Shown: piece by piece, positions 3,901 to 46,947 of the stretch
Position numbering within the stretch: position 1 is the first letter of the stretch
How the letters are laid out: each line of letters starts with the position of its first letter
DNA from: Pyrenophora tritici-repentis
Taxonomy: Eukaryota; Ascomycota; Dothideomycetes; Pleosporales; Pleosporaceae
Length of the DNA: 64,000 bases
Direction: 5' to 3'
NCBI RefSeq assembly: GCF_003171515.1
Contig: NC_089392.1
Span: 1,116,001-1,180,000, forward strand
The notes under the pieces: model-generated
The model's database searches: none
Seen by the model: only the letters and a program-made list of their open reading frames with translations
Told to the model about the DNA's origin: nothing
Program-made: the position numbers and the translations under genes

Positions 3901-4261
3901 GAAACGGGGTGGGTGCGTTCAAGACCTCAAATTTGATCTTTCCAATCTGTGTCGATACATGTGCGGTTCCAATCGAAGTAGTGACGCTTCCTTTGCCAAA
4001 TTGCACAGATGCGTTTCCAGCAGTAGACGTATCTAGAGTTACGGTGGGGTCCTCAGTTTGGAGCGCCCAGAACTGCTCCTTTCCGGCTGTCGATACATTT
4101 GAGGCACCAGTGTCAGGAAGAATGCCTTGGTACGTGATTCGCGAGTATCGATCCTCGATAAGGAACTGCGTTGCGGGCGTAATAGGCTCCTTGCACCTGT
4201 AGACGTCTTCTCCAGTCACGTGGTGCAAAAAGGCCTGATCTGTGAGGTACTTAACTGCCAA
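988..4261 (-). pseudogene. copia pol (protease-integrase-RT-RNase H), frame-broken
   Basis: The first segment (4261-2171) carries the protease signature DTGAS, an integrase HHCC zinc site (HRRFGHP...CHHC), and integrase acidic residues in LVDVMYL, THDAGTNF and GKVERYH. The RT begins with YEKSRLVVQGYN and the first catalytic Asp in RDITQAY. The frame is lost near 2180. RT continues in other frames through 2250-1612, where GLQTDDTL supplies the paired Asp. RNase H follows at 1523-1056 (FTDGSFAN, LASETY, CTDSYSL); another one-base loss near 1100 diverts its C-terminus, and the displaced frame would stop at 988-990. The start lies in a frame -1 to gag and is open upstream across the gag stop, so translation could depend on frameshifting or on a one-base error in the GGGG run near 4325. 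At least three breaks are needed to explain the frames, so as written pol is not functional. Confidence 0.85.
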
Positions 4262-4293
4262 TCTTTGGTCCTCATCATCTTCGTCTTGCTCCT

Positions 4294-7403: not shown

Positions 7404-8137
7404 ATGTCTCAAACAAGCATTTTTCCTGCTCTCTATGCAGAGTCTTCGCGTATAGCAACCGACCAAAAAGAAAAAATCACGCATATTGCAACCGGATCGT
7501 ACGTGGAACTAACGAAACTTTCCAATGGAATAAAAGTCCACATTTCTCAACTAGTTCAACTGGCTCTTAGCCTTGTTCTCTCGGCATATCTAGGAGTGGA
7601 CGAAATGACTTTCGTATACGCCTACACTTTCGATGGCAATAGTTCTGTCAGTCCTTCAATCTGCTCCATTTCTCTAGACCAGGAGGAATCAATTGTCCGT
7701 TCCCTCCACGCCATCACCGAAACTTCCCTTCAGAAACATCAAGAAGAAATGGATGATAGTGTTGCCAGTGAGGCAGACGGGATCGCACTACTTCTACATA
7801 TTGGAAACAATAGTTCAATGTCCTGTCAAGTAGGATCTTTTTCTAGCTTGAAAAAGTTTAAGGTATAATAGAAAGCACTAAAGATGCCTACGAAAGCCAT
7901 TAACTAACGGATCATTAGGTTCTTATTCACATAACTATGGACCAAGTGATACGCATCAGAATAGAATATTCGACCTCTGTTCTTGGCATGGAACAAGCGC
8001 GCAGAGTGGCTGAAACTCTCGAACACGTCCTCTTTACGATTGCGCGGAATCCGAATAGCCCTTGTAAAGAGATTGATCTTTGCAGTTCGCGATGCAAATC
8101 AGACCTTAGTGGGTGGAACAAGCAACCTCCAGAGTTT
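7404..8137 (+). other. N-terminal half condensation domain (inactive)
   Basis: This N-terminus resembles only the C-terminal half of a C domain, with SQLVQLALSLVLSAYLGVDE matching the usual latch/floor region, and IRIEYSTSVLGMEQA the end of the fold. The HHxxxDG catalytic motif is absent, so it cannot condense. Half C domains at the N-terminus are known in fungal NRPSs that make cyclic peptides. A 56-bp intron interrupts it. Confidence 0.7.
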
Positions 8138-14100: not shown

Positions 14101-17100
14101 GGCCCGGCAATTGCGACGGTGCCTGTGCGGGTGCGTTTACCAAGAGACTGGACCGTACCAGCCCTCCTTGCTGCTGTGCAACAACAGGCAACCGAGATGA
14201 TCCCATACGAGCAGACAGGATTGCAGCGGATCGCCAAGATGGGAGCGGATGCGCAGCACGCCTGTGGCTTCCAGACGCTGCTGATAGTGCAGCCAGCTGA
14301 TGACGGTCTAGAGAGCGACAAGTCACTAGGAAGATGGCAGACCAAGTCAGAGCTGCAGGACTTCACGACTTACGCACTGATGGTGCAGTGCACGCTAGCT
14401 ACGGAGCGAGTGCAGATCACGGCCAGCTTTGATCCACAGATCATCGAGCAGTGGCAAGTGCAGAGGATGCTGGGCCAGCTTGGCTTCGTCGCGCAGCAGC
14501 TGGCGGAAGCCGGTGGCAAGACGACAGTTGCTGAGATTGATACGCTCACTCCCGAGGACAGACAACAGCTGTGGAAGTGGAATGGAGAGGTTCCTCCGGT
14601 GGTGGAGCGGTGCGTGCACGAGCTGTTTGTGGAGCAGGCGCGGGCACGACCTGACGCGGCGGCCATCTGCGCGTGGGACGGCGAGATGAAGTACGGCGAG
14701 CTGGACGAGCTGTCGTCCAGGCTGGCCGGCTACCTAGTGGGTTTGGGCGTCGGGCCCGAAGCCATTGTTCCTCTGTGCTTCGAGAAGTCGATGTGGACGG
14801 TGGTGGCCATGCTGGCAGTGCTCAAGGCTGGCGGCGCCTTCGCTCCCCTAGACCCAGAACACCCAGCAAGTCGGCACGAGGAGATCTTCCGGCAGACTGG
14901 CGCCAGAGTGGTGCTTGCTTCGGCACAGCACTCGACGCTCTGCAGCGGCGGCAACCGCACCGTCGTGGTGGTCAGCAAGGCCTCTTTCGATAGACTGTCA
15001 AGCGCAAGCGACAAGGCCAACGTGATATCGAAGCCAAGTAGTATTGCGTACGTCATGTTCACTTCAGGCAGCACAGGAACACCCAAAGGAGTCGTCCTAG
15101 AACACAGAGCAATTTCAACAAGCTGTCTCACCCATGGAGAGGCGTTTGGCTTCTCGCCTAGCACTCGAAGCCTTCAGTTTGCTGCCTACACCTTTGACGC
15201 GTGCATCACGGAGATCATCACGGCCCTTTTGTTTGGCGCATGCATTTGCGTTCCCTCCGAGCTGGACAGACGTAACGACTTGTCGAACATTTCAAACACC
15301 TTGAAAGTAAGTTGGGCATTGCTTACGCCAACGGTTGCACGAACACTTGACCCCAAAACAATTCCATCGCTCAGAACCTTGGTACTTGGGGGGTGAGCAG
15401 GTGAGCCGCGTTGACTGGGAAAGGTGGAGTCATCTTGAAAAGCAGATCAATACGTATGGTCCTACAGAATGCAGCGTTTGGTGCACATCACACTCTAATG
15501 TTGCTGGTTTCACGTCAGGAACGATTGGAAAGTTGATTGCTTCTGTGGGCTGGGTGGTGGATCCAAACGACCACAACAGGCTTGCGCCGCTCGGGTCGGT
15601 GGGCGAGCTGCTCGTTGAGGGACCGATCCTGGCACGCGGCTACCTGAACGACGCAGAGAAGACGGCGGCCGCGTTCATCGACGACCCGGCCTGGCTGCTG
15701 GAAGGCTCCAAAGAGCACGCGGGCCGGCACGCGGGCCGGCACGGCCGGCTGTACAAGACCGGCGACCTGGTGCACTACGATGCAGACGGCAATCTAGTGT
15801 ACGTAGGGCGCAAGGACGGGCAGGTCAAGGTACGCGGGCAGCGGGTGGAGCTTGGGGAGATTGAGCACCACGTGCGCGAGTGCATGCCGGAAGTAGGACG
15901 TATGGCAGTAGAAGTGATCATGCCGGGAGACGACAAAGACAAGGCGACGGTGGCTGTCTTTGTGGAACAGAAAGAGGAAGAGGTTTCCGATGGAGACGGC
16001 TCCTCTGCACGCGTTTTCTTCCCCTCCCAGGTGGACAGCCAGCTCAGCGAGCGGCTGCCTAGCTACATGGTACCCGGAGTCTACTTTTCAGTCGCGCAGC
16101 TTCCCATGACAACGTCGGGCAAGACGGACCGCAAGCGGCTGCGCGAGATTGGGGCTACATTCTCAGCCCAGCAGCTGGCGGAGCTGCGCACGCGCAGCCA
16201 GGGACCAAAGCGGCAGCCGTCGACAGACAAGGAGAAGGCAATGCAGCAGCTGTGGGCGCAGGTGCTCAACATCGACGCAGACAGCATCGGGCTGGACGAC
16301 AGCTTCTTCCGCCTGGGCGGCGACTCGATCGCAGCCATGAAGCTGGTGGCCGAGGCACGCAAGCAGAATGTTCACCTTACCGTCGCAGCCACTTTCCAGC
16401 ATCCCAGGCTCGTCGATTTGGCCGCTTGGGCTGGCGGAGTAGATCCAGCTGTGGCGCAGAGCATTGTGCCCTTCTCCCTTCTGAACATCAACTCCGACGT
16501 CGACACAGCACGTATCCAGGAGGAAGTCGCTGCTGGCTGCAACATAGACAAGGACCTGGTGGAAGACATCTACCCGTGCTCGCCGCTTCAGGAGGGCCTG
16601 ATGTCGCTCACGTCAAAGCGGGCGGGTGACTATATTATGCAGAGTGTACTAGAGCTGTCAGTCAGCATGGATGAAAGCGCTCTACGGGCGGCGTGGGAGC
16701 AGGTTGTGAAGCAATCGATGATGCTACGCACGCGCATCGTGCAGCACAGCAGGTTGGGCCTTCTGCAGGTGGTGGTAGCAGGCGATATACAGTGGATGGA
16801 AGCAGACCATCTGGGAACGTACCTGGCAGAGGACAAAGCGGCGTCTATGCAGCCGGGCGACTGTCTGGCACGCTACGCTTTTGTCAAGGAGAGAGACGGT
16901 GGAAGGCGCTGGTTTGTGTGGACAATGCACCACGCTCTCTACGACGGCTGGTCTCTGCCTCGCATCCTGGGCGCTGTAGAGAAAGCATACAATGGTGGTG
17001 TTCTTGAAGAGCGGCCAGGCTTTAACGCTTTCGTCCAGTACCTTAGTCAGCAAGATCAGGAGGCCACTACCAACTACTGGCAGACTACACTCGCCGGCTG

Positions 17101-20100
17101 CGAGGCGACAATGTTCCCGCCACTTCCCCCATCAATACATCAGCCAGTGGCAAATGCAATGTTAGAGCACCAATGCCCGCCGCTCCCCAGGACAATGGCA
17201 TCCGATACCACTACATCAACGCTGATCCGCGCGGCGTGGGCTATTGTTGCGGGTAACTACACCAGCTCAGACGACGTCGTCTTTGGCGCCACGGTGACGG
17301 GCCGCAACGCGCCGGTGGCAGGCATTGAGGATATAGTGGGCCCGGCAATTGCGACGGTGCCTGTGCGGGTGCGTTTACCAAGAGACTGGACCGTACCAGC
17401 CCTCCTTGCTGCTGTGCAACAACAGGCAACCGAGATGATCCCATACGAGCAGACAGGATTGCAGCGGATCGCCAAGATGGGAGCGGATGCGCAGCACGCC
17501 TGTGGCTTCCAGACGCTGCTGATAGTGCAGCCAGCTGATGACGGTCTAGAGAGCGACAAGTCACTAGGAAGATGGCAGACCAAGTCAGAGCTGCAGGACT
17601 TCACGACTTACGCACTGATGGTACAGTGCACGCTAGCTACGGAGCGAGTGCAGATCACGGCCAGCTTTGATCCACAGGTCATCGAGCAGTGGCAAGTGCA
17701 GAGGATGCTGGGCCAGCTTGGCTTCGTCGCGCAGCAGCTGGCGGAAGCCGGTGGCAAGACGACAGTTGCTGAGATTGATACGCTCACTCCCGAGGACAGA
17801 CAACAGCTGTGGAAGTGGAATGGAGAGGTTCCTCCGGTGGTGGAGCGGTGCGTGCACGAGCTGTTTGTGGAGCAGGCGCGGGCACGACCTGACGCGGCGG
17901 CCATCTGCGCGTGGGACGGCGAGATGAAGTACGGCGAGCTGGACGAGCTGTCGTCCAGGCTGGCCGGCTACCTAGTGGGTTTGGGCGTCGGGCCCGAAGC
18001 CATTGTTCCTCTGTGCTTCGAGAAGTCGATGTGGACGGTGGTGGCCATGCTGGCAGTGCTCAAGGCTGGCGGCGCCTTCGCTCCCCTGGACCCAGAACAC
18101 CCAGCAAGTCGGCACGAGGAGATCTTCCGGCAGACTGGCGCCAGAGTGGTGCTTGCTTCGGCACAGCACTCGACGCTCTGCAGCGGCGGCAACCGCACCG
18201 TCGTGGTGGTCAGCGAGGCTGCCATGCGTGAGCTGCCCAGCGAGGCCAGCGAGGCCAGCACAACCGACAAAAGGACGACAACTCGCACAAAGGCACAGCC
18301 AGACAACCCTGCCTATGTGCTGTTCACGTCTGGGAGCACGGGAAAGCCCAAGGGCGTGGTGATTGAGCACAGGGCAATATTGACCAGCTGCTTGGGTCAC
18401 GGAAAAGCCTTTAACCTTACAAGCGACTCGCGCTTTCTCCAATTCTCTTCTTACACGTTCGACGTTAGCATTACCGAGATATGGACTACGCTTCTAGTGG
18501 GTGGCTGTACTTGCGTCCCATCAGAAAGCGACAAGAAAGATGATCTTTCGAAAGCAATAAATGCTCTGGACGCGAATTGGGCATACCTCACGTCCACTGT
18601 TGCGAAGCTTCTCGATCCAGAGCGCATCCCGGGATTACAAAATCTTATCCTCGGAGCAGAACTTGTAACAGATCACGACTGGAACAGATGGAGCCCTTAT
18701 GCCCGTCAGATAACTGCATATGGTCCTACTGAGTGTTGCGTTCTTTGCACTTTCTACTCCGGTACTCTTGGCTTTTACACAGGCTTGCTCGGCAAGTCTG
18801 TTGCGTCGGTCAGCTGGGTGGTGGACCCCAACGACCACCACAAGCTGGCTCCCCTGGGCGCGGTGGGTGAGCTGCTCGTTGAGGGACCGATCCTGGCGCG
18901 CGGCTACCTGAACGACGCAGAGAAGACGGCGGCCGCGTTCATCGACGACCCGGCCTGGCTGCTGGAGGGATGCGACCAGCACGCGGGCCGGCGCGGCCGG
19001 CTGTACAAGACCGGCGACCTCGTCTACTACAATGCAGACGGCAATCTAGTGTACGTCAACCGCAAAGATGCGCAGGTCAAGGTACGCGGGCAGCGGGTGG
19101 AGCTTGGGGAGATTGAGCACCACGTGCGCGAGTGCATGCCGGAAGTAGGACGTATGGCAGTAGAAGTGATCATGCCGGGAGACGACAAAGACAAGGCGAC
19201 GGTGGCTGTCTTTGTGGAACAGAAAGAGGAAGAGGTTTCCGATGGAGACGGCTCCTCTGCACGCGTTTTCTTCCCCTCCCAGGTGGACAGCCAGCTCAGC
19301 GAGCGGCTGCCTAGCTACATGGTACCCGGAGTCTACTTTTCAGTCGCGCAGCTTCCCATGACAACGTCGGGTAAGACAGACCGCAAGCGGCTGCGCGAGA
19401 TTGGGGCTACATTCTCAGCCCAGCAGCTGGCGGAGCTGCGCACGCGCAGCCAGGGACCAAAGCGGCAGCCGTCGACAGACAAGGAGAAGGCAATGCAGCA
19501 GCTGTGGGCGCAGGTGCTCAACATCGACGCAGACAGCATCGGGCTGGACGACAGCTTCTTCCGCCTGGGCGGCGACTCGATCACAGCCATGCAGGTCTCT
19601 TCGACCGCGCGGTCGCTCCAAATCTCAGTCACTACAGCCGATATCCTCGAACAGAAAACCATTTCCCGTTTGGCTCACCGCATGTCGCGGAATCACTTCT
19701 CTTCCAATCTTGTGATGGAAGACCCAGTGAACAGGCACTTTAGTCTGACGCCGATTCAGGAGCTATATCTCCGGCTCGAGAGCACTGGCAGCGCTTGCTT
19801 TGACCAGAGCTTTTTCCTAGAGCTCAGCAGCTTGACAAACCTCGAATCGCTGCGCGCAGCGTTCAAAACCCTTGTTCGACGGCATTCCATGCTCCGAGCT
19901 TTGTTCAGCCAGACGGCTGGAGGTAGGTGGCAGCAACATATATCCGATCGCGGTAGTGCCTCCTTTACGGTGGACTATGTGCGGTGCATCGACAGCAAGG
20001 ACGTTAGTGAAGCGATCCGACAGAGCCGAGACGGGCTGGATGTACAGAATGGTCCTGTGCTGGCAGCAGTCCTGTGCGATCAGGGTCAGCGCCAACTGCT

Positions 20101-23100
20101 GTTTATCGCCATTCACCACTTGGTGATCGATCTGGTTTCGTGGCGTGTGCTTCTCGAAGAGTTGGAGGACCTGCTTCTCTCGCGGAAGCTTCCCGCTGTG
20201 CCCGCCGTCCCCTTTCAAGCCTGGCAGGCTCTCCAAACGGAACATGCTACCAAGCACAAATGCCCTAGTGGCGTGGCTCAAGACGAGGTGGCTTCTGGGG
20301 AGTCACTGTCCTACTGGGGCATAGAACCTGATGCTGTCAAACGCGGGAGTGTGGTATCGAAACAGTTTGCACTCAACGAACAGACAACCTCGGCCCTGCT
20401 CGGACCCTGCAACGATGTATTTCAGACGCGTCCTGTGGAGCTTATGCTTGCCGCTCTAGCTCATTCTTTTGCTATTGCCTTCTCCGACCGAGCTCCGCCC
20501 ACCATCTTTAACGAGAGCCACGGCCGCGAGCCTTGGGATGCCGGCATTGATCTCTCTCGCACTGTGGGATGGTTCACGAGCATGCTCCCCATTCAGGTGC
20601 CGAGTCACACCAGAGGCGACCTGCTTGAGGTCATCCGGCACACCAAAGATGGCATGCGCAAGTTCCCTGACAACGGCCGATCCTATTTTGCCTCGCGGTT
20701 TGCCGATGCTGACACTTCGGATGTGTTCGCGTCCATGTTCCCTGTGGAAGTAATATTCAATTATCAAGGCGTGTACCAGCAGCTCGAGCGCACAGACTCG
20801 CTGTTCAAAACCCTGCCAGCTCCGGACGGATGTGAGCCAGCATCGATGTTAGAGGCCCCGAGGTTCGCTTTGTTCGACGTATCTGCGGTTGTCGAAAAGG
20901 GGCGCATGCACGTGACTGTTACAAGCGACAGCAAAGCGAAGCGCCAGCAGCAAGTAGCCAACTGGATCGAGCGCTACGAGATGGCCCTGGTTGAGATGGC
21001 GACTCTCCTGCAGAAGAAGCATAAGCAATGGACGCTGAGCGACCTGCCACTCGCGTTCAAAACCTACGAAGATCTGGACAGCTTCCAGAACGATACACTT
21101 GCAGAGCTTGGCGTCCAACCTGAAGAGGTCGAGGACGTCTTTCCGTGTCTGCCCATGCAGGAGGGGATCCTCATCAGCCAGAGCAGAGATCCAGATGCAT
21201 ATCGGGTATCGTCTATCTTTGAAGTCATACCGACGCAGCAAAACCAGGTCAATTGCACTCGGCTGCAGCAAGCTTGGGAGGCTGTGGTACGCCGGCATTC
21301 GCTATTGCGGGCACTGCTGGTCGATAACGTGCCTGGAAGTTTAGGAACCACGAACGTAGTGCTGAAAGATCCACAACCCAGCATATCATTCTTCCGAGCA
21401 GCGGGAGACACAGCAACTCTTGCCATGTTCCGCGCCCACCAGGACACTTTAGCTCAGCAAGACAGTGGCCTGCAGCATCGCATGTTCATTTGCCAGCTTG
21501 ATAATGGAAAGGCCTATCTATGCCTAGATATTAACCACGCCATCTTTGACGCCCACTCTCGCGGCGTCATCTTGCGCGACTTGCAAAGTGCATACAGTGC
21601 CAACCTTAATCCAGACAGCGGGCGGTTCCGAGATGTCGTTTCGTATCTAACCCAACAGGAACAGGAGGAGACGCATGCTTACTGGGCAAGGTACCTTGAT
21701 GGCGTCGAGCCATGCTTTTTCTCTTCGATGGCAGAGCCTCAAGATGTATGCTACAGAGATGGAACAGTGCATGTGCCTGACATTGACGCAAATGCCGTCC
21801 ATACATTTTGCCAGACATGGGACATCACCATAGCTACTATCATACAGACAGCATGGGCCCTGGTCCTAAGCCGATACACTGGAGCGACGACCCCGTGCTT
21901 TGGAAATCTCTCCTCGAGACGGGACTTGCCGGTCGAGGATGTCGCCAATATCTTTGGCCCGCTTATTACAACGATTGCATGCAGAGTGCAGCTGGATGAA
22001 CATAAGACTGTGATGGATGTGCTGAGGGCAGTGCAGAGCGACTATACAAACAGCCTGCCGCATCAGAACATCTCTCTCGCGAGCGTGCACAGCATGCTTG
22101 GGCTGGGGGCGAACGCTTTGTTCAACACAATCCTATCGCTTCAACGGATCGATGACACAATGGCTGTTAACGATTCTGAGATTGATTTCCGCGGTCAGAG
22201 CGGATCGGATCCGACTGAGGTGAGTTCATGTATGAGCGGTGATGCATGGCCCCTTACTAACCTGCTGGATGTAGTATGCTATTAACATAGGGGCTGGATA
22301 CAATCGCTCTGTGATGGAGATCGAAATCCATTATCAGACCCGCTGCATTGACGATGCCCAAGCCGCCAATCTTGCAGAGAGCTTGAGCCAAGCGATCTAT
22401 GGCATCATCACAAAAACGACATCCACGATAGGCGACCTGCAGATCCTCTCAAAGAGACAGCAGCAACAGCTGTGGAAGTGGAATGGAGAGGTTCCTCCGG
22501 TGGTGGAGCGGTGCGTGCACGAGCTGTTTGTGGAGCAGGCGCGGGCACGACCTGACGCGGCGGCCATCTGCGCGTGGGACGGCGAGATGAAGTACGGCGA
22601 GCTGGACGAGCTGTCGTCCAGGCTGGCCGGCTACCTAGTGGGTTTGGGCGTCGGGCCCGAAGCCATTGTTCCTCTGTGCTTCGAGAAGTCGATGTGGACG
22701 GTGGTGGCCATGCTGGCAGTGCTCAAGGCTGGCGGCGCCTTCGCTCCCCTAGACCCAGAACACCCAGCAAGTCGGCACGAGGAGATCTTCCGGCAGACTG
22801 GCGCCAGAGTGGTGCTTGCTTCGGCACAGCACTCGACGCTCTGCAGCGGCGGCAACCGCACCGTCGTGGTGGTCAGCGAGGCTGCCATGCGTGAGCTGCC
22901 CAGCGAGGCCAGCGAGGCCAGCACAACCGACAAAAGGACGACAACTCGCACAAAGGCACAGCCAGACAACCCTGCCTATGTGCTGTTCACGTCTGGGAGC
23001 ACGGGAAAGCCCAAGGGCGTGGTGATTGAGCACAGGGCAATATTGACCAGCTGCTTGGGTCACGGAAAAGCCTTTAACCTTACAAGCGACTCGCGCTTTC

Positions 23101-26100
23101 TCCAATTCTCTTCTTACACGTTCGACGTTAGCATTACCGAGATATGGACTACGCTTCTAGTGGGTGGCTGTACTTGCGTCCCATCAGAAAGCGACAAGAA
23201 AGATGATCTTTCGAAAGCAATAAATGCTCTGGACGCGAATTGGGCATACCTCACGTCCACTGTTGCGAAGCTTCTCGATCCAGAGCGCATCCCGGGATTA
23301 CAAAATCTTATCCTCGGAGCAGAACTTGTAACAGATCACGACTGGAACAGATGGAGCCCTTATGCCCGTCAGATAACTGCATATGGTCCTACTGAGTGTT
23401 GCGTTCTTTGCACTTTCTACTCCGGTACTCTTGGCTTTTACACAGGCTTGCTCGGCAAGTCTGTTGCGTCGGTCAGCTGGGTGGTGGACCCCAACGACCA
23501 CCACAAGCTGGCTCCCCTGGGCGCGGTGGGTGAGCTGCTCGTTGAGGGACCGATCCTGGCGCGCGGCTACCTGAACGACGCAGAGAAGACGGCGGCCGCG
23601 TTCATCGACGACCCGGCCTGGCTGCTGGAGGGATGCGACCAGCACGCGGGCCGGCGCGGCCGGCTGTACAAGACCGGCGACCTCGTCTACTACAATGCAG
23701 ACGGCAATCTAGTGTACGTCAACCGCAAAGATGCGCAGGTCAAGGTACGCGGGCAGCGGGTGGAGCTTGGGGAGATTGAGCACCACGTGCGCGAGTGCAT
23801 GCCGGAAGTAGGACGTATGGCAGTAGAAGTGATCATGCCGGGAGACGACAAAGACAAGGCGACGGTGGCTGTCTTTGTGGAACAGAAAGAGGAAGAGGTT
23901 TCCGATGGAGACGGCTCCTCTGCACGCGTTTTCTTCCCCTCCCAGGTGGACAGCCAGCTCAGCGAGCGGCTGCCTAGCTACATGGTACCCGGAGTCTACT
24001 TTTCAGTCGCGCAGCTTCCCATGACAACGTCGGGCAAGACGGACCGCAAGCGGCTGCGCGAGATTGGGGCTACATTCTCAGCCCAGCAGCTGGCGGAGCT
24101 GCGCACGCGCAGCCAGGGACCAAAGCGGCAGCCGTCGACAGACAAGGAGAAGGCAATGCAGCAGCTGTGGGCGCAGGTGCTCAACATCGACGCAGACAGC
24201 ATCGGGCTGGACGACAGCTTCTTCGCCTGGGCGGCGACTCGATCGCAGCCATGAAGCTGGTGGCCGAGGCACGCAAGCAGAATGTTCACCTTACCGTCGC
24301 AGCCACTTTCCAGCATCCCAGGCTCGTCGATTTGGCCGCTTGGGCTGGCGGAGTAGATCCAGCTGTGGCGCAGAGCATTGTGCCCTTCTCCCTTCTGAAC
24401 ATCAACTCCGACGTCGACACAGCACGTATCCAGGAGGAAGTCGCTGCTGGCTGCAACATAGACAAGGACCTGGTGGAAGACATCTACCCGTGCTCGCCGC
24501 TTCAGGAGGGCCTGATGTCGCTCACGTCAAAGCGGGCGGGTGACTATATTATGCAGAGTGTACTAGAGCTGTCAGTCAGCATGGATGAAAGCGCTCTACG
24601 GGCGGCGTGGGAGCAGGTTGTGAAGCAATCGATGATGCTACGCACGCGCATCGTGCAGCACAGCAGGTTGGGCCTTCTGCAGGTGGTGGTAGCAGGCGAT
24701 ATACAGTGGATGGAAGCAGACCATCTGGGAACGTACCTGGCAGAGGACAAAGCGGCGTCTATGCAGCCGGGCGACTGTCTGGCACGCTACGCTTTTGTCA
24801 AGGAGAGAGACGGTGGAAGGCGCTGGTTTGTGTGGACAATGCACCACGCTCTCTACGACGGCTGGTCTCTGCCTCGCATCCTGGGCGCTGTAGAGAAAGC
24901 ATACAATGGTGGTGTTCTTGAAGAGCGGCCAGGCTTTAACGCTTTCGTCCAGTACCTTAGTCAGCAAGATCAGGAGGCCACTACCAACTACTGGCAGACT
25001 ACACTCGCCGGCTGCGAGGCGACAATGTTCCCGCCACTTCCCCCATCAATACATCAGCCAGTGGCAAATGCAATGTTAGAGCACCAATGCCCGCCGCTCC
25101 CCAGGACAATGGCATCCGATACCACTACATCAACGCTGATCCGCGCGGCGTGGGCTATTGTTGCGGGTAACTACACCAGCTCAGACGACGTCGTCTTTGG
25201 CGCCACGGTGACGGGCCGCAACGCGCCGGTGGCAGGCATTGAGGATATAGTGGGCCCGGCAATTGCGACGGTGCCTGTGCGGGTGCGTTTACCAAGAGAC
25301 TGGACCGTACCAGCCCTCCTTGCTGCTGTGCAACAACAGGCAACCGAGATGATCCCATACGAGCAGACAGGATTGCAGCGGATCGCCAAGATGGGAGCGG
25401 ATGCGCAGCACGCCTGTGGCTTCCAGACGCTGCTGATAGTGCAGCCAGCTGATGACGGTCTAGAGAGCGACAAGTCACTAGGAAGATGGCAGACCAAGTC
25501 AGAGCTGCAGGACTTCACGACTTACGCACTGATGGTGCAGTGCACGCTAGCTACGGAGCGAGTGCAGATCACGGCCAGCTTTGATCCACAGATCATCGAG
25601 CAGTGGCAAGTGCAGAGGATGCTGGGCCAGCTTGGCTTCGTCGCGCAGCAGCTGGCGGAAGCCGGTGGCAAGACGACAGTTGCTGAGATTGATACGCTCA
25701 CTCCCGAGGACAGACAACAGCTGTGGAAGTGGAATGGAGAGGTTCCTCCGGTGGTGGAGCGGTGCGTGCACGAGCTGTTTGTGGAGCAGGCGCGGGCACG
25801 ACCTGACGCGGCGGCCATCTGCGCGTGGGACGGCGAGATGAAGTACGGCGAGCTGGACGAGCTGTCGTCCAGGCTGGCCGGCTACCTAGTGGGTTTGGGC
25901 GTCGGGCCCGAAGCCATTGTTCCTCTGTGCTTCGAGAAGTCGATGTGGACGGTGGTGGCCATGCTGGCAGTGCTCAAGGCTGGCGGCGCCTTCGCTCCCC
26001 TAGACCCAGAACACCCAGCAAGTCGGCACGAGGAGATCTTCCGGCAGACTGGCGCCAGAGTGGTGCTTGCTTCGGCACAGCACTCGACGCTCTGCAGCGG

Positions 26101-29100
26101 CGGCAACCGCACCGTCGTGGTGGTCAGCGAGGCTGCCATGCGTGAGCTGCCCAGCGAGGCCAGCGAGGCCAGCACAACCGACAAAAGGACGACAACTCGC
26201 ACAAAGGCACAGCCAGACAACCCTGCCTATGTGCTGTTCACGTCTGGGAGCACGGGAAAGCCCAAGGGCGTGGTGATTGAGCACAGGGCAATATTGACCA
26301 GCTGCTTGGGTCACGGAAAAGCCTATAACCTTACAAGCGACTCGCGCTTTCTCCAATTCTCTTCTTACACGTTCGACGTTAGCATTACCGAGATATGGAC
26401 TACGCTTCTAATGGGTGGCTGTACTTGCGTCCCATCAGAAAGCGACAAGAAAGATGATCTTTTGAAAGCAATAAATGCTCTGGACGCGAATTGGGCACAC
26501 CTCACGCCTACTGTTGCGAAGCTTCTCGATCCAGAGCGCATCCCGGGATTACAAAATCTTATCCTCGGAGCAGAACTTGTAACAGATCACGACTGGAACA
26601 GATGGAGCCCTTATGCCCGTCAGATAACTACATATGGTCCTACTGAGTGTTGCGTTCTTTGCACTTTCTACTCCGGTACTCTTGGCTTTTACACAGGCTT
26701 GCTCGGCAAGTCTGTTGCGTCGGTCAGCTGGGTGGTGGACCCCAACGACCACCACAAGCTGGCTCCCCTGGGCGCGGTGGGTGAGCTGCTCGTTGAGGGA
26801 CCGATCCTGGCGCGCGGCTACCTGAACGACGCAGAGAAGACGGCGGCCGCGTTCATCGACGACCCGGCCTGGCTGCTGGAGGGATGCGACCAGCACGCGG
26901 GCCGGCGCGGCCGGCTGTACAAGACCGGCGACCTCGTCTACTACAATGCAGACGGCAATCTAGTGTACGTCAACCGCAAAGATGCGCAGGTCAAGGTACG
27001 CGGGCAGCGGGTGGAGCTTGGGGAGATTGAGCACCACGTGCGCGAGTGCATGCCGGAAGTAGGACGTATGGCAGTAGAAGTGATCATGCCGGGAGACGAC
27101 AAAGACAAGGCGACGGTGGCTGTCTTTGTGGAACAGAAAGAGGAAGAGGTTTCCGATGGAGACGGCTCCTCTGCACGCGTTTTCTTCCCCTCCCAGGTGG
27201 ACAGCCAGCTCAGCGAGCGGCTGCCTAGCTACATGGTACCCGGAGTCTACTTTTCAGTCGCGCAGCTTCCCATGACAACGTCGGGTAAGACAGACCGCAA
27301 GCGGCTGCGCGAGATTGGGGCTACATTCTCAGCCCAGCAGCTGGCGGAGCTGCGCACGCGCAGCCAGGGACCAAAGCGGCAGCCGTCGACAGACAAGGAG
27401 AAGGCAATGCAGCAGCTGTGGGCGCAGGTGCTCAACATCGACGCAGACAGCATCGGGCTGGACGACAGCTTCTTCCGCCTGGGCGGCGACTCGATCACAG
27501 CCATGCAGGTCTCTTCGACCGCGCGGTCGCTCCAAATCTCAGTCACTACAGCCGATATCCTCGAACAGAAAACCATTTCCCGTTTGGCTCACCGCATGTC
27601 GCGGAATCACTTCTCTTCCAATCTTGTGATGGAAGACCCAGTGAACAGGCACTTTAGTCTGACGCCGATTCAGGAGCTATATCTCCGGCTCGAGAGCACT
27701 GGCAGCGCTTGCTTTGACCAGAGCTTTTTCCTAGAGCTCAGCAGCTTGACAAACCTCGAATCGCTGCGCGCAGCGTTCAAAACCCTTGTTCGACGGCATT
27801 CCATGCTCCGAGCTTTGTTCAGCCAGACGGCTGGAGGTAGGTGGCAGCAACATATATCCGATCGCGGTAGTGCCTCCTTTACGGTGGACTATGTGCGGTG
27901 CATCGACAGCAAGGACGTTAGTGAAGCGATCCGACAGAGCCGAGACGGGCTGGATGTACAGAATGGTCCTGTGCTGGCAGCAGTCCTGTGCGATCAGGGT
28001 CAGCGCCAACTGCTGTTTATCGCCATTCACCACTTGGTGATCGATCTGGTTTCGTGGCGTGTGCTTCTCGAAGAGTTGGAGGACCTGCTTCTCTCGCGGA
28101 AGCTTCCCGCTGTGCCCGCCGTCCCCTTTCAAGCCTGGCAGGCTCTCCAAACGGAACATGCTACCAAGCACAAATGCCCTAGTGGCGTGGCTCAAGACGA
28201 GGTGGCTTCTGGGAGTCACTGTCCTACTGGGGCATAGAACCTGATGCTGTCAAACGCGGGAGTGTGGTATCGAAACAGTTTGCACTCAACGAACAGACAA
28301 CCTCGGCCCTGCTCGGACCCTGCAACGATGTATTTCAGACGCGTCCTGTGGAGCTTATGCTTGCCGCTCTAGCTCATTCTTTTGCTATTGCCTTCTCCGA
28401 CCGAGCTCCGCCCACCATCTTTAACGAGAGCCACGGCGCGAGCCTTGGGATGCCGGCATTGATCTCTCTCGCACTGTGGGATGGTTCACGAGCATGCTCC
28501 CCATTCAGGTGCCGAGTCACACCAGAGGCGACCTGCTTGAGGTCATCCGGCACACCAAAGATGGCATGCGCAAGTTCCCTGACAACGGCCGATCCTATTT
28601 TGCCTCGCGGTTTGCCGATGCTGACACTTCGGATGTGTTCGCGTCCATGTTCCCTGTGGAAGTAATATTCAATTATCAAGGCGTGTACCAGCAGCTCGAG
28701 CGCACAGACTCGCTGTTCAAAACCCTGCCAGCTCCGGACGGATGTGAGCCAGCATCGATGTTAGAGGCCCGAGGTTCGCTTTGTTCGACGTATCTGCGGT
28801 TGTCGAAAAGGGGCGCATGCACGTGACTGTTACAAGCGACAGCAAAGCGAAGCGCCAGCAGCAAGTAGCCAACTGGATCGAGCGCTACGAGATGGCCCTG
28901 GTTGAGATGGCGACTCTCCTGCAGAAGAAGCATAAGCAATGGACGCTGAGCGACCTGCCACTCGCGTTCAAAACCTACGAAGATCTGGACAGCTTCCAGA
29001 ACGATACACTTGCAGAGCTTGGCGTCCAACCTGAAGAGGTCGAGGACGTCTTTCCGTGTCTGCCCATGCAGGAGGGGATCCTCATCAGCCAGAGCAGAGA

Positions 29101-32100
29101 TCCAGATGCATATCGGGTATCGTCTATCTTTGAAGTCATACCGACGCAGCAAAACCAGGTCAATTGCACTCGGCTGCAGCAAGCTTGGGAGGCTGTGGTA
29201 CGCCGGCATTCGCTATTGCGGGCACTGCTGGTCGATAACGTGCCTGGAAGTTTAGGAACCACGAACGTAGTGCTGAAAGATCCACAACCCAGCATATCAT
29301 TCTTCCGAGCAGCGGGAGACACAGCAACTCTTGCCATGTTCCGCGCCCACCAGGACACTTTAGCTCAGCAAGACAGTGGCCTGCAGCATCGCATGTTCAT
29401 TTGCCAGCTTGATAATGGAAAGGCCTATCTATGCCTAGATATTAACCACGCCATCTTTGACGCCCACTCTCGCGGCGTCATCTTGCGCGACTTGCAAAGT
29501 GCATACAGTGCCAACCTTAATCCAGACAGCGGGCGGTTCCGAGATGTCGTTTCGTATCTAACCCAACAGGAACAGGAGGAGACGCATGCTTACTGGGCAA
29601 GGTACCTTGATGGCGTCGAGCCATGCTTTTTCTCTTCGATGGCAGAGCCTCAAGATGTATGCTACAGAGATGGAACAGTGCATGTGCCTGACATTGACGC
29701 AAATGCCGTCCATACATTTTGCCAGACATGGGACATCACCATAGCTACTATCATACAGACAGCATGGGCCCTGGTCCTAAGCCGATACACTGGAGCGACG
29801 ACCCCGTGCTTTGGAAATCTCTCCTCGAGACGGGACTTGCCGGTCGAGGATGTCGCCAATATCTTTGGCCCGCTTATTACAACGATTGCATGCAGAGTGC
29901 AGCTGGATGAACATAAGACTGTGATGGATGTGCTGAGGGCAGTGCAGAGCGACTATACAAACAGCCTGCCGCATCAGAACATCTCTCTCGCGAGCGTGCA
30001 CAGCATGCTTGGGCTGGGGGCGAACGCTTTGTTCAACACAATCCTATCGCTTCAACGGATCGATGACACAATGGCTGTTAACGATTCTGAGATTGATTTC
30101 CGCGGTCAGAGCGGATCGGATCCGACTGAGGTGAGTTCATGTATGAGCGGTGATGCATGGCCCCTTACTAACCTGCTGGATGTAGTATGCTATTAACATA
30201 GGGGCTGGATACAATCGCTCTGTGATGGAGATCGAAATCCATTATCAGACCCGCTGCATTGACGATGCCCAAGCCGCCAATCTTGCAGAGAGCTTGAGCC
30301 AAGCGATCTATGGCATCATCACAAAAACGACATCCACGATAGGCGACCTGCAGATCCTCTCAAAGAGACAGCAGCAACAGCTGTGGAAGTGGAATGGAGA
30401 GGTTCCTCCGGTGGTGGAGCGGTGCGTGCACGAGCTGTTTGTGGAGCAGGCGCGGGCACGACCTGACGCGGCGGCCATCTGCGCGTGGGACGGCGAGATG
30501 AAGTACGGCGAGCTGGACGAGCTGTCGTCCAGGCTGGCCGGCTACCTAGTGGGTTTGGGCGTCGGGCCCGAAGCCATTGTTCCTCTGTGCTTCGAGAAGT
30601 CGATGTGGACGGTGGTGGCCATGCTGGCAGTGCTCAAGGCTGGCGGCGCCTTCGCTCCCCTAGACCCAGAACACCCAGCAAGTCGGCACGAGGAGATCTT
30701 CCGGCAGACTGGCGCCAGAGTGGTGCTTGCTTCGGCACAGCACTCGACGCTCTGCAGCGGCGGCAACCGCACCGTCGTGGTGGTCAGCGAGGCTGCCATG
30801 CGTGAGCTGCCCAGCGAGGCCAGCGAGGCCAGCACAACCGACAAAAGGACGACAACTCGCACAAAGGCACAGCCAGACAACCCTGCCTATGTGCTGTTCA
30901 CGTCTGGGAGCACGGGAAAGCCCAAGGGCGTGGTGATTGAGCACAGGGCAATATTGACCAGCTGCTTGGGTCACGGAAAAGCCTTTAACCTTACAAGCGA
31001 CTCGCGCTTTCTCCAATTCTCTTCTTACACGTTCGACGTTAGCATTACCGAGATATGGACTACGCTTCTAGTGGGTGGCTGTACTTGCGTCCCATCAGAA
31101 AGCGACAAGAAAGATGATCTTTCGAAAGCAATAAATGCTCTGGACGCGAATTGGGCATACCTCACGCCACTGTTGCGAAGCTTCTCGATCCAGAGCGCAT
31201 CCCGGGATTACAAAATCTTATCCTCGGAGCAGAACTTGTAACAGATCACGACTGGAACAGATGGAGCCCTTATGCCCGTCAGATAACTGCATATGGTCCT
31301 ACTGAGTGTTGCGTTCTTTGCACTTTCTACTCCGGTACTCTTGGCTTTTACACAGGCTTGCTCGGCAAGTCTGTTGCGTCGGTCAGCTGGGTGGTGGACC
31401 CCAACGACCACCACAAGCTGGCTCCCCTGGGCGCGGTGGGTGAGCTGCTCGTTGAGGGACCGATCCTGGCGCGCGGCTACCTGAACGACGCAGAGAAGAC
31501 GGCGGCCGCGTTCATCGACGACCCGGCCTGGCTGCTGGAGGGATGCGACCAGCACGCGGGCCGGCGCGGCCGGCTGTACAAGACCGGCGACCTCGTCTAC
31601 TACAATGCAGACGGCAATCTAGTGTACGTCAACCGCAAAGATGCGCAGGTCAAGGTACGCGGGCAGCGGGTGGAGCTTGGGGAGATTGAGCACCACGTGC
31701 GCGAGTGCATGCCGGAAGTAGGACGTATGGCGGTAGAAGTGATCATGCCGGGAGACGACAAAGACAAGGCGACGGTGGCTGTCTTTGTGGAACAGAAAGA
31801 GGAAGAGGTTTCCGATGGAGACGGCTCCTCTGCACGCGTTTTCTTCCCCTCCCAGGTGGACAGCCAGCTCAGCGAGCGGCTGCCTAGCTACATGGTACCC
31901 GGAGTCTACTTTTCAGTCGCGCAGCTTCCCATGACAACGTCGGGTAAGACAGACCGCAAGCGGCTGCGCGAGATTGGGGCTACATTCTCAGCCCAGCAGC
32001 TGGCGGAGCTGCGCACGCGCAGCCAGGGACCAAAGCGGCAGCCGTCGACAGACAAGGAGAAGGCAATGCAGCAGCTGTGGGCGCAGGTGCTCAACATCGA

Positions 32101-35100
32101 CGCAGACAGCATCGGGCTGGACGACAGCTTCTTCCGCCTGGGCGGCGACTCGATCACAGCCATGCAGGTCTCTTCGACCGCGCGGTCGCTCCAAATCTCA
32201 GTCACTACAGCCGATATCCTCGAACAGAAAACCATTTCCCGTTTGGCTCACCGCATGTCGCGGAATCACTTCTCTTCCAATCTTGTGATGGAAGACCCAG
32301 TGAACAGGCACTTTAGTCTGACGCCGATTCAGGAGCTATATCTCCGGCTCGAGAGCACTGGCAGCGCTTGCTTTGACCAGAGCTTTTTCCTAGAGCTCAG
32401 CAGCTTGACAAACCTCGAATCGCTGCGCGCAGCGTTCAAAACCCTTGTTCGACGGCATTCCATGCTCCGAGCTTTGTTCAGCCAGACGGCTGGAGGTAGG
32501 TGGCAGCAACATATATCCGATCGCGGTAGTGCCTCCTTTACGGTGGACTATGTGCGGTGCATCGACAGCAAGGACGTTAGTGAAGCGATCCGACAGAGCC
32601 GAGACGGGCTGGATGTACAGAATGGTCCTGTGCTGGCAGCAGTCCTGTGCGATCAGGGTCAGCGCCAACTGCTGTTATCGCCATTCACCACTTGGTGATC
32701 GATCTGGTTTCGTGGCGTGTGCTTCTCGAAGAGTTGGAGGACCTGCTTCTCTCGCGGAAGCTTCCCGCTGTGCCCGCCGTCCCCTTTCAAGCCTGGCAGG
32801 CTCTCCAAACGGAACATGCTACCAAGCACAAATGCCCTAGTGGCGTGGCTCAAGACGAGGTGGCTTCTGGGGAGTCACTGTCCTACTGGGGCATAGAACC
32901 TGATGCTGTCAAACGCGGGAGTGTGGTATCGAAACAGTTTGCACTCAACGAACAGACAACCTCGGCCCTGCTCGGACCCTGCAACGATGTATTTCAGACG
33001 CGTCCTGTGGAGCTTATGCTTGCCGCTCTAGCTCATTCTTTTGCTATTGCCTTCTCCGACCGAGCTCCGCCCACCATCTTTAACGAGAGCCACGGCCGCG
33101 AGCCTTGGGATGCCGGCATTGATCTCTCTCGCACTGTGGGATGGTTCACGAGCATGCTCCCCATTCAGGTGCCGAGTCACACCAGAGGCGACCTGCTTGA
33201 GGTCATCCGGCACACCAAAGATGGCATGCGCAAGTTCCCTGACAACGGCCGATCCTATTTTGCCTCGCGGTTTGCCGATGCTGACACTTCGGATGTGTTC
33301 GCGTCCATGTTCCCTGTGGAAGTAATATTCAATTATCAAGGCGTGTACCAGCAGCTCGAGCGCACAGACTCGCTGTTCAAAACCCTGCCAGCTCCGGACG
33401 GATGTGAGCCAGCATCGATGTTAGAGGCCCCGAGGTTCGCTTTGTTCGACGTATCTGCGGTTGTCGAAAAGGGGCGCATGCACGTGACTGTTACAAGCGA
33501 CAGCAAAGCGAAGCGCCAGCAGCAAGTAGCCAACTGGATCGAGCGCTACGAGATGGCCCTGGTTGAGATGGCGACTCTCCTGCAGAAGAAGCATAAGCAA
33601 TGGACGCTGAGCGACCTGCCACTCGCGTTCAAAACCTACGAAGATCTGGACAGCTTCCAGAACGATACACTTGCAGAGCTTGGCGTCCAACCTGAAGAGG
33701 TCGAGGACGTCTTTCCGTGTCTGCCCATGCAGGAGGGGATCCTCATCAGCCAGAGCAGAGATCCAGATGCATATCGGGTATCGTCTATCTTTGAAGTCAT
33801 ACCGACGCAGCAAAACCAGGTCAATTGCACTCGGCTGCAGCAAGCTTGGGAGGCTGTGGTACGCCGGCATTCGCTATTGCGGGCACTGCTGGTCGATAAC
33901 GTGCCTGGAAGTTTAGGAACCACGAACGTAGTGCTGAAAGATCCACAACCCAGCATATCATTCTTCCGAGCAGCGGGAGACACAGCAACTCTTGCCATGT
34001 TCCGCGCCCACCAGGACACTTTAGCTCAGCAAGACAGTGGCCTGCAGCATCGCATGTTCATTTGCCAGCTTGATAATGGAAAGGCCTATCTATGCCTAGA
34101 TATTAACCACGCCATCTTTGACGCCCACTCTCGCGGCGTCATCTTGCGCGACTTGCAAAGTGCATACAGTGCCAACCTTAATCCAGACAGCGGGCGGTTC
34201 CGAGATGTCGTTTCGTATCTAACCCAACAGGAACAGGAGGAGACGCATGCTTACTGGGCAAGGTACCTTGATGGCGTCGAGCCATGCTTTTTCTCTTCGA
34301 TGGCAGAGCCTCAAGATGTATGCTACAGAGATGGAACAGTGCATGTGCCTGACATTGACGCAAATGCCGTCCATACATTTTGCCAGACATGGGACATCAC
34401 CATAGCTACTATCATACAGACAGCATGGGCCCTGGTCCTAAGCCGATACACTGGAGCGACGACCCCGTGCTTTGGAAATCTCTCCTCGAGACGGGACTTG
34501 CCGGTCGAGGATGTCGCCAATATCTTTGGCCCGCTTATTACAACGATTGCATGCAGAGTGCAGCTGGATGAACATAAGACTGTGATGGATGTGCTGAGGG
34601 CAGTGCAGAGCGACTATACAAACAGCCTGCCGCATCAGAACATCTCTCTCGCGAGCGTGCACAGCATGCTTGGGCTGGGGGCGAACGCTTTGTTCAACAC
34701 AATCCTATCGCTTCAACGGATCGATGACACAATGGCTGTTAACGATTCTGAGATTGATTTCCGCGGTCAGAGCGGATCGGATCCGACTGAGGTGAGTTCA
34801 TGTATGAGCGGTGATGCATGGCCCCTTACTAACCTGCTGGATGTAGTATGCTATTAACATAGGGGCTGGATACAATCGCTCTGTGATGGAGATCGAAATC
34901 CATTATCAGACCCGCTGCATTGACGATGCCCAAGCCGCCAATCTTGCAGAGAGCTTGAGCCAAGCGATCTATGGCATCATCACAAAAACGACATCCACGA
35001 TAGGCGACCTGCAGATCCTCTCAAAGAGACAGCAGCAACAGCTGTGGAAGTGGAATGGAGAGGTTCCTCCGGTGGTGGAGCGGTGCGTGCACGAGCTGTT

Positions 35101-38100
35101 TGTGGAGCAGGCGCGGGCACGACCTGACGCGGCGGCCATCTGCGCGTGGGACGGCGAGATGAAGTACGGCGAGCTGGACGAGCTGTCGTCCAGGCTGGCC
35201 GGCTACCTAGTGGGTTTGGGCGTCGGGCCCGAAGCCATTGTTCCTCTGTGCTTCGAGAAGTCGATGTGGACGGTGGTGGCCATGCTGGCAGTGCTCAAGG
35301 CTGGCGGCGCCTTCGCTCCCCTAGACCCAGAACACCCAGCAAGTCGGCACGAGGAGATCTTCCGGCAGACTGGCGCCAGAGTGGTGCTTGCTTCGGCACA
35401 GCACTCGACGCTCTGCAGCGGCGGCAACCGCACCGTCGTGGTGGTCAGCGAGGCTGCCATGCGTGAGCTGCCCAGCGAGGCCAGCGAGGCCAGCACAACC
35501 GACAAAAGGACGACAACTCGCACAAAGGCACAGCCAGACAACCCTGCCTATGTGCTGTTCACGTCTGGGAGCACGGGAAAGCCCAAGGGCGTGGTGATTG
35601 AGCACAGGGCAATATTGACCAGCTGCTTGGGTCACGGAAAAGCCTATAACCTTACAAGCGACTCGCGCTTTCTCCAATTCTCTTCTTACACGTTCGACGT
35701 TAGCATTACCGAGATATGGACTACGCTTCTAATGGGTGGCTGTACTTGCGTCCCATCAGAAAGCGACAAGAAAGATGATCTTTTGAAAGCAATAAATGCT
35801 CTGGACGCGAATTGGGCACACCTCACGCCTACTGTTGCGAAGCTTCTCGATCCAGAGCGCATCCCGGGATTACAAAATCTTATCCTCGGAGCAGAACTTG
35901 TAACAGATCACGACTGGAACAGATGGAGCCCTTATGCCCGTCAGATAACTACATATGGTCCTACTGAGTGTTGCGTTCTTTGCACTTTCTACTCCGGTAC
36001 TCTTGGCTTTTACACAGGCTTGCTCGGCAAGTCTGTTGCGTCGGTCAGCTGGGTGGTGGACCCCAACGACCACCACAAGCTGGCTCCCCTGGGCGCGGTG
36101 GGTGAGCTGCTCGTTGAGGGACCGATCCTGGCGCGCGGCTACCTGAACGACGCAGAGAAGACGGCGGCCGCGTTCATCGACGACCCGGCCTGGCTGCTGG
36201 AGGGATGCGACCAGCACGCGGGCCGGCGCGGCCGGCTGTACAAGACCGGCGACCTCGTCTACTACAATGCAGACGGCAATCTAGTGTACGTCAACCGCAA
36301 AGATGCGCAGGTCAAGGTACGCGGGCAGCGGGTGGAGCTTGGGGAGATTGAGCACCACGTGCGCGAGTGCATGCCGGAAGTAGGACGTATGGCAGTAGAA
36401 GTGATCATGCCGGGAGACGACAAAGACAAGGCGACGGTGGCTGTCTTTGTGGAACAGAAAGAGGAAGAGGTTTCCGATGGAGACGGCTCCTCTGCACGCG
36501 TTTTCTTCCCCTCCCAGGTGGACAGCCAGCTCAGCGAGCGGCTGCCTAGCTACATGGTACCCGGAGTCTACTTTTCAGTCGCGCAGCTTCCCATGACAAC
36601 GTCGGGTAAGACAGACCGCAAGCGGCTGCGCGAGATTGGGGCTACATTCTCAGCCCAGCAGCTGGCGGAGCTGCGCACGCGCAGCCAGGGACCAAAGCGG
36701 CAGCCGTCGACAGACAAGGAGAAGGCAATGCAGCAGCTGTGGGCGCAGGTGCTCAACATCGACGCAGACAGCATCGGGCTGGACGACAGCTTCTTCCGCC
36801 TGGGCGGCGACTCGATCACAGCCATGCAGGTCTCTTCGACCGCGCGGTCGCTCCAAATCTCAGTCACTACAGCCGATATCCTCGAACAGAAAACCATTTC
36901 CCGTTTGGCTCACCGCATGTCGCGGAATCACTTCTCTTCCAATCTTGTGATGGAAGACCCAGTGAACAGGCACTTTAGTCTGACGCCGATTCAGGAGCTA
37001 TATCTCCGGCTCGAGAGCACTGGCAGCGCTTGCTTTGACCAGAGCTTTTTCCTAGAGCTCAGCAGCTTGACAAACCTCGAATCGCTGCGCGCAGCGTTCA
37101 AAACCCTTGTTCGACGGCATTCCATGCTCCGAGCTTTGTTCAGCCAGACGGCTGGAGGTAGGTGGCAGCAACATATATCCGATCGCGGTAGTGCCTCCTT
37201 TACGGTGGACTATGTGCGGTGCATCGACAGCAAGGACGTTAGTGAAGCGATCCGACAGAGCCGAGACGGGCTGGATGTACAGAATGGTCCTGTGCTGGCA
37301 GCAGTCCTGTGCGATCAGGGTCAGCGCCAACTGCTGTTTATCGCCATTCACCACTTGGTGATCGATCTGGTTTCGTGGCGTGTGCTTCTCGAAGAGTTGG
37401 AGGACCTGCTTCTCTCGCGGAAGCTTCCCGCTGTGCCCGCCGTCCCCTTTCAAGCCTGGCAGGCTCTCCAAACGGAACATGCTACCAAGCACAAATGCCC
37501 TAGTGGCGTGGCTCAAGACGAGGTGGCTTCTGGGGAGTCACTGTCCTACTGGGGCATAGAACCTGATGCTGTCAAACGCGGGAGTGTGGTATCGAAACAG
37601 TTTGCACTCAACGAACAGACAACCTCGGCCCTGCTCGGACCCTGCAACGATGTATTTCAGACGCGTCCTGTGGAGCTTATGCTTGCCGCTCTAGCTCATT
37701 CTTTTGCTATTGCCTTCTCCGACCGAGCTCCGCCCACCATCTTTAACGAGAGCCACGGCCGCGAGCCTTGGGATGCCGGCATTGATCTCTCTCGCACTGT
37801 GGGATGGTTCACGAGCATGCTCCCCATTCAGGTGCCGAGTCACACCAGAGGCGACCTGCTTGAGGTCATCCGGCACACCAAAGATGGCATGCGCAAGTTC
37901 CCTGACAACGGCCGATCCTATTTTGCCTCGCGGTTTGCCGATGCTGACACTTCGGATGTGTTCGCGTCCATGTTCCCTGTGGAAGTAATATTCAATTATC
38001 AAGGCGTGTACCAGCAGCTCGAGCGCACAGACTCGCTGTTCAAAACCCTGCCAGCTCCGGACGGATGTGAGCCAGCATCGATGTTAGAGGCCCCGAGGTT

Positions 38101-46945: not shown

Positions 46946-46947
46946 TA

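Follow-up and report, generated by a model that had tools for sequence, protein, structure and literature searches.

Clustered pocket variation among near-identical A domains of a multimodular NRPS in Pyrenophora tritici-repentis

How NRPS assembly lines gain new substrates without breaking the contacts between their domains is an open question, which tandem arrays of near-identical A domains allow us to address. In this study, we analyzed a window of 64,000 nucleotides (C3:1116001–1180000) on a contig of 3,658,030 bp from Pyrenophora tritici-repentis, the tan spot fungus of wheat. The genome under study is taken to be that of isolate M4 (40.9 Mb in 41 contigs). From the nucleotides of the window, it had been predicted that the scaffold of the sister A domains is homogenized while the specificity segment changes. 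Our data support this prediction in the NRPS gene of the window (gene 1), more weakly in a second array on the same contig (gene 2), and in the form of block exchange in a third array on another contig (C2). We consider it probable that these are expanding arrays in which the scaffold is kept near-identical and the substrate-binding part is diversified by block exchange and substitutions.

Gene 1 was read as several open frames with introns and frame breaks between them. Matches above the cut-offs for the Pfam AMP-binding, Condensation, and PP-binding families identify it as a multimodular fungal NRPS, and AA-adenyl-dom (TIGR01733) scored above its cut-off in all four ORFs given (A1, A3/A4, A8, and A10). 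The modules are of two types, short (approximately 3.25 kb; A2, A3, and A5) and long (4658–4663 bp; A4 and A6–A9). Each long module contains two condensation-family stretches, which we take to be a presumed epimerization domain and a condensation domain (A-T-E-C). Unit coordinates start at window position 34883, with the A8 module as the reference (Table 1). The identity of A8 and A9 includes a putative intron, predicted from the nucleotide sequence, at 39455–39509 (GTGAGT and TAG ends). Past 45774, the frame of A10 enters sequence without further match to the unit; no PP-binding match was found in the A10 ORF, nor any unit match downstream of A10 within the window.

Table 1 Features of gene 1 in window coordinates, with the evidence used to place them.
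Feature	Position	Strand	Evidence
Gene 1, multimodular NRPS with ten A domains (A1–A10)	7937..45957	+	ORFs, Pfam, repeat map, tblastn
Short module A2 (A-T-C)	11160..14411	+	
Short module A3	14412..17649	+	repeat map
Long module A4	17650..22310	+	repeat map
Short module A5	22311..25563	+	repeat map
Long module A6, 0 substitutions vs A8 over 4.5 kb matched, several indels	25564..30221	+	
Long module A7	30222..34882	+	repeat map
Long module A8 (A-T-E-C, E presumed), 4663 bp, coordinate reference	34883..39545	+	Pfam, repeat map
Long module A9, 0 differences vs A8 over 4663 bp	39546..44208	+	repeat map
A2 pocket segment, haplotype H3, DVIFIGAVL	11921..12260	+	
A4 pocket segment, haplotype H1, DVTYIGAVL	18411..18750	+	
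A5 pocket segment, H1, DVTYIGAVL	23074..23413	+	
A6 pocket segment (unit 764–1103), haplotype H2, DVTHIGTVL	26325..26664	+	
A7 pocket segment, H1 with frame-breaking 1-nt deletion at unit 946–948	30985..31323	+	
A8 pocket segment, H2, DVTHIGTVL	35646..35985	+	
A9 pocket segment, H2, DVTHIGTVL	40309..40648	+	
A3 exchanged block, unit 568 to ~1424, code in two pieces from frame break	14977..15819	+	
A10 exchanged block, almost identical to that of A3, DATLVGTVW	44776..45617	+	

Seven of the ten A domains in the window (A2 and A4–A9) form the sister set of gene 1 and are approximately 99–100% identical in DNA. Their nucleotide alignment contains 15 variable sites in the 1571-bp A core (unit 154–1724), at 441, 764, 827, 842, 850, 902, 937, 938, 946, 948, 1050, 1058, 1069, 1103, and 1512. 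The substitutions are not evenly spread: 13 of the 15 fall in a segment of 340 bp (unit 764–1103), whose limits are the outermost sites seen. When sites were placed uniformly, 13 of 15 fell in any 340-bp window in 2 of 200,000 simulations. Among the long modules A4 and A6–A9, 10 sites vary over 4.5 kb, seven inside the segment and none within 1513–4663, a clustering matched by 50 of 500,000 simulations. Unchanged flanks had been predicted as well, and only two of the 15 sites lie outside the segment, although these two (441 and 1512) do vary, silently. The predicted motif differences are present, with AFNL, LLVGG, LSKAI, AYLT, and TAYGPTE in A4, A5, and A7 (the last in two pieces), AYNL, LLMGG, LLKAI, AHLTP, and TTYGPTE in A6, A8, and A9, and IIEIW, AFLTP, and CVLCIF in A2. 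Within the segment, the three haplotypes H1, H2, and H3 differ by 6 to 9 amino acids. Two further points of the original prediction needed amendment. Its sister set holds for A2 and A4–A9, whereas A3 and A10, which it left out, differ far more, by block exchange; A7 has the H1 sequence of an ordinary A4/A5-type domain but has lost 1 nt within the segment, and its frame is broken there.

The same modules occur in gene 2, approximately 33 kb downstream of gene 1 and outside the window (modules B1–B10; C3:1194533–1228424, window coordinates 78533–112424), which starts inside an A domain at unit ~1577. In pairwise and 30-sequence alignments, codons 276, 313, and 357 correspond to PheA positions 239, 278, and 322. 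As predicted, the changed residues at these code positions would lie within the pocket, judging from sequence alignment to 104 PheA residues with the numbering checked against 1AMU. The sisters have T or I at 239, Y, H, or F at 278, and A or T at 322; no variation was seen at the other six of the nine code positions tested. The nine changed codons in the PheA-aligned stretch cover three of the nine code positions (P = 0.03). The codes consist of the nine positions 235–331, with position 517 not included. H1 (DVTYIGAVL) is carried by A4, A5, B3, and B6, and by A7 when read as two pieces; H2 (DVTHIGTVL) by A6, A8, and A9; and H3 (DVIFIGAVL) by A2, B2, and B9. B4 and B5 have the H3-type I at 239, F at 278, and other alleles elsewhere. 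The remaining codes are DATLVGTVW in A10, the same in A3 in two broken pieces (DATLVG / YGTVW) apart from the shifted residue, DATLVGGVL in B10, DALLVIGVL in B7 and B8, and DVRSVGAAV in A1.

Amino-acid-changing and silent sites were compared in 13 sister domains (A2, A4–A9, B2–B6, and B9), which occupy 13 of the 20 A positions of the two C3 genes. A1, A3, A10, B1 (C-terminal piece only), B7, B8, and B10 were left out because their core or block differs. Gapped codons were treated as missing, and the class of each site was set by hand from the codon table. Codons 255–368 contain 11 changing and 2 silent sites, as against 4 and 7 in the rest of codons 52–648, and these counts remain unchanged when the indel-rich B4 and B5 are dropped. 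Per site, changing sites are 11 times denser in the segment than outside (0.0416 vs 0.0037), whereas silent sites are about equally dense (0.0259 vs 0.0198). In binomial tests of location, the 11 of 15 changing sites in the segment gave P = 9e-6 and the 2 of 9 silent sites P = 0.67. Since the segment limits came from the data, the analysis was repeated with limits set by motifs: A3–A5, A3–A6, and PheA 235–331 enclosed 10, 12, and 9 of the 15 changing sites (P = 0.0004, 0.0001, and 0.0001) and 2, 3, and 2 of the 9 silent sites (P = 0.40–0.62). Direct Fisher tests of changing against silent sites were weak (P = 0.033, 0.056, and 0.057; 0.089, 0.036, and 0.105 with the motif-set limits). Changing sites thus cluster in the pocket segment over a flat background of silent ones. 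Within the segment, the density of changing sites (0.0416) is higher than that of silent sites (0.0259), but the ratio of 11 to 2 is compatible with neutrality, being expected in 41% of neutral draws (P = 0.41).

The near-equal density of silent sites speaks against both a cold spot for recombination and a hot spot for mutation, and on this ground a cold spot or an older coalescence of the segment found no support. RIP seems an unlikely source of the changes, the site columns showing mixed transitions and transversions; few RIP-affected regions are described in the consulted parts of the M4 genome paper (PMC5913888). Homologues outside P. tritici-repentis were used as outgroups only. In these outgroup NRPSs, the patch diverges in amino acids approximately 1.6 times faster than the flanks do (52% vs 70% identity, both set by eye), a rate that predicts 27% of the changes in the segment against the 11 of 15 seen (P = 0.0003). 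Together with the flat silent sites, this excess indicates that the clustering is not simply that of a fast, old, or mutation-hot region. In gene 2 alone, the sites are less concentrated, with 9 of the 16 in unit 154–1724 falling in the segment (P = 0.003), and the counts are 8 changing and 1 silent inside the segment vs 4 and 4 outside.

The first alternative to be weighed is relaxed constraint, in which the pocket drifts neutrally in redundant or decaying modules and the rest of the domain is held by purifying selection and conversion. The ratio of changing to silent sites within the segment is compatible with such drift, the frame break of A7 and B4 lies in the segment, and no T domain follows A10. 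We nevertheless find this explanation somewhat unlikely, given that six of the nine code positions do not vary, that the outgroup rate falls well short of the share of changes seen in the segment, and that the pocket types recur in the records of another isolate. The weaker concentration in gene 2 alone slightly lowers our confidence in a diversified pocket on a conserved scaffold and slightly raises the standing of relaxed constraint.

A second kind of change affects whole blocks of the A core. A3 and A10 are 97–100% identical to A8 in unit 146–565, 47–70% in 566–1165, and 82–98% up to 1465. A3 is back to 97–100% from unit 1466, and A10 departs from A-domain sequence after unit 1581; inside the block, the two have only 2 differences. 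B10 has the same left edge and is back to the sister type at 1059–1065, beside motif A5 (97–100% identical to A8 in unit 146–565 and 93–100% from 1106). The right end of the block thus differs by copy, from motif A5 to beyond A6. The C-A linker and the Asub-T junction of the recipient are kept in A3 and B10, and A10 is without the Asub end. In B7 and B8, the whole A core is replaced, as shown for B7 from unit 189 to ~1653. The third array (C2:580001–600000, on a contig of 5,077,074 bp) has four A domains, Ci–Civ. In 60-bp bins, Ci and Cii are 98–100% identical in 206–565, 35–97% in 566–1165, and 100% in 1226–1885, and Ciii corresponds to Ci on its left and to Cii on its right, with the switch within 939–1003. 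The 60-bp profiles had suggested a common internal breakpoint of B10 and Ciii, which was discarded in view of these two switch positions.

The blocks and their flanks have discordant ancestry, as found in Acore subdomain exchange. The A3 block is 90% identical to the Ci and Civ blocks, whereas in the left scaffold the identity between A3 and Ci is 72–85%. Trees were built from 13 sequences, in which the sisters are represented by A2, A4, and A8 only; the alignment outgroups were up to two A domains from each of 16 proteins. In the scaffold tree, A3, A10, and B10 are grouped with A2, A4, and A8 (0.996), but in the patch tree they join Ci, Ciii, and Civ (1.000). In the right-part tree, B10 falls among the sisters and Ciii beside Cii. 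In both the C3 and C2 arrays, the left edge of the block is at unit 564–573, approximately 35 codons before motif A3. This edge stands directly after the common string GTCGTGGTGGT.

We propose a route by which such arrays may change, based on these patterns. Module scaffolds would stay almost the same through duplication, unequal exchange, and gene conversion. Some 35 codons upstream of motif A3 begins a block of the A core that would be exchanged between A domains and also across loci, as in A3, A10, B10, and the C2 array. Substitutions that change amino acids of the pocket or its surroundings (PheA 239, 278, 322, and their neighbours) would be kept, giving rise to H1, H2, and H3. The type of recombination named here is presumed from the pattern, the substitutions may alter the residue that is activated, and selection for altered activation may be what preserves them. 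Sisters that are near-identical and differ mainly at the pocket make cause and effect directly testable with purified A domains. The arrays also display natural exchange boundaries in a fungus, with concerted evolution and diversification on the same 1.5 kb. In a bolder reading, which we think unlikely, the arrays are a specificity-diversifying repertoire, in which conversion keeps the scaffold, pocket blocks are copied in with a preferred left exchange point at 564–573, selection keeps new pockets, and broken modules serve as donors. If it were true, almost identical DNA would come to yield different peptides in different isolates.

Exchange could in principle account for the haplotypes as well, if H1–H3 had arisen through short tracts converted from diverged A domains acting as donors and the clustering reflected tract length instead of selection on single residues. 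Block exchange between A domains is evident, and B4 and B5 combine haplotype alleles. Inside the sister segment, there are eight four-gamete pairs, all of them dependent on B5 and none without it, and recombination among H1–H3 inside the segment is weakly indicated by B5 and one protein variant of isolate 86-124. However, a donor of 47–70% identity would bring many silent changes, and the segment has two silent sites; among the matches listed in a genome search with the A8 core, all near-identical copies belong to the two C3 arrays. We regard short tracts as quite improbable and substitutions kept in the pocket as the more probable source of the haplotypes.

Pocket types were scored in five of the eight matches listed as P. 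tritici-repentis (P0003, P0018, P0121, P0122, and P0123), of which P0018 is M4 itself (PtrM4_078100) and P0123 is a more distant NRPS; P0001 (presumably C2 family), P0002 (A domain B7-like by eye), and P0019 were not scored. The types recur outside M4. P0121 from isolate 86-124 contains H3, an H2 pocket with F for Y at codon 255, and an A10-type code, and P0122 from the same isolate contains H1 together with a copy resembling H1 whose reading is shifted as in A7. P0003, from another P. tritici-repentis contig, contains H3 and then the start of an A3-type block. Among the records scored, the full H2 set with Y255 is seen in M4 only. According to the consulted parts of the M4 paper (PMC5913888), 86-124 was sequenced with short reads, and the P0121 and P0122 records may stem from that assembly. 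It is very improbable that errors of assembly or polishing in these long, near-identical repeats produced the pattern: M4 is reported, in the same parts, as a PacBio assembly polished by Pilon with short reads (PMC5913888), many 1-nt GG/CC losses in A6, B4, and B5 resemble residual errors, and the A8/A9 identity and the module order could be affected, but the pocket alleles, except the full H2 set, are present in 86-124 and the other contig, and errors would not favour amino-acid-changing pocket sites.

As assembled, with nothing mended, gene 1 does not give a single intact reading frame after splicing, and has frame breaks in A3, A5, the A6 module, and A7. Many of the indels remove a single nucleotide from a GG or CC run, a pattern expected from long-read errors, and others lie outside such runs. 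The A7 deletion (unit 946–948) is outside a GG/CC run, and the same shift is implied in P0122, ruling out sequencing error as the source of all indels. This deletion looks real by sequence comparison, in which 21 A domains with identities of 58% or more, drawn from the 15 sequences given, served as outgroups. A7 and B4 have the same frame-breaking deletion on different pocket backgrounds, which may trace to one null allele that has spread or to two separate losses of T; one event and two are indistinguishable, because H1 and H3 give the same string after the loss. A reading of A7 as a mosaic at 946 was dropped in favour of H1 with a deletion. A6 and B4 also have in common a 1-nt loss in a G run at unit 2650, either a systematic error or a real common loss. 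Part of the array may be decaying, to judge from the A7/B4 frame break and the lack of a T domain after A10. Given the frame breaks and the missing T domain, any product of the gene is hypothetical.

That domains of this NRPS family have been duplicated and swapped was published in 2013, and the pattern at the level of the pocket is the addition of the present study. Manning et al. (2013; PMC3538342) reported PTRG_10433 and its relatives PTRG_10437 and PTRG_11809 from P. tritici-repentis BFP. In the consulted parts of their account, PTRG_10433 is the largest NRPS, with duplicated near-identical domains, a new T-E-C combination, two newly introduced A domains, a link to transposable elements, and EST support (unpublished data). 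Gene 1 is of the same species and gene family and is likened to PTRG_10433 by that description only. PTRG_10433 has six A-T-C modules and a last A domain, with two sequence gaps, whereas gene 1 has ten A domains. The parts of the 2013 account consulted treat whole domains, whereas pocket residues and the comparison of changing and silent sites are found only here.

Exchange of the Acore subdomain is described in bacterial NRPSs by Baunach et al. (2021; PMC8097286), with an intragenomic case in PMC9205934, both consulted in part. As in those accounts, exchange in the P. tritici-repentis arrays is confined to the A core, the native C-A linker and Asub-T junction are kept, and conserved motifs serve as exchange points. 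In contrast to the bacterial case as described there, gene 1 is fungal, exchange is between tandem modules and between arrays on two contigs, and the close likeness of the scaffolds in DNA allows the left edge to be placed within a few bp. In the microcystin synthetase A domains McyB1 and McyC, the consulted parts of PMC2564945 describe positive selection that includes pocket residue 278, within purifying selection overall and alongside recombination; position 278 also varies in our sisters. That comparison was between strains, with likelihood tests of site models and known products, whereas ours is between modules of one genome. Among open-licence PMC articles, available mostly as the starts of abstracts, we found no report of pocket-confined variation among sister fungal NRPS modules.

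Several further features of the region were recorded. Gene 1 exits A-domain sequence at about unit 1581 (45770–45780), and gene 2 enters it at about unit 1577 (78529–78535, beyond the window), with AAGAG common to the gene 1 end and the gene 2 start. The two genes are possibly one locus split by a 33-kb insertion or rearrangement. At 46946–52367, there are two head-to-head genes for DDE_1/Tc5-type transposases, presumably pogo/Fot1-like, whose arms are 94% complementary over 1478 nt and have short inverted repeats starting TAACGTGTCCGTG. A minus-strand ORF with a hAT family dimerization domain lies at 56600–57100. An ORF at 59435–60298, 13 kb past the NRPS, has the C-terminal part of a FAD_binding_3 domain and could be a cluster gene. 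A tRNA-Arg (tct) is encoded on the minus strand at 62873–62958.
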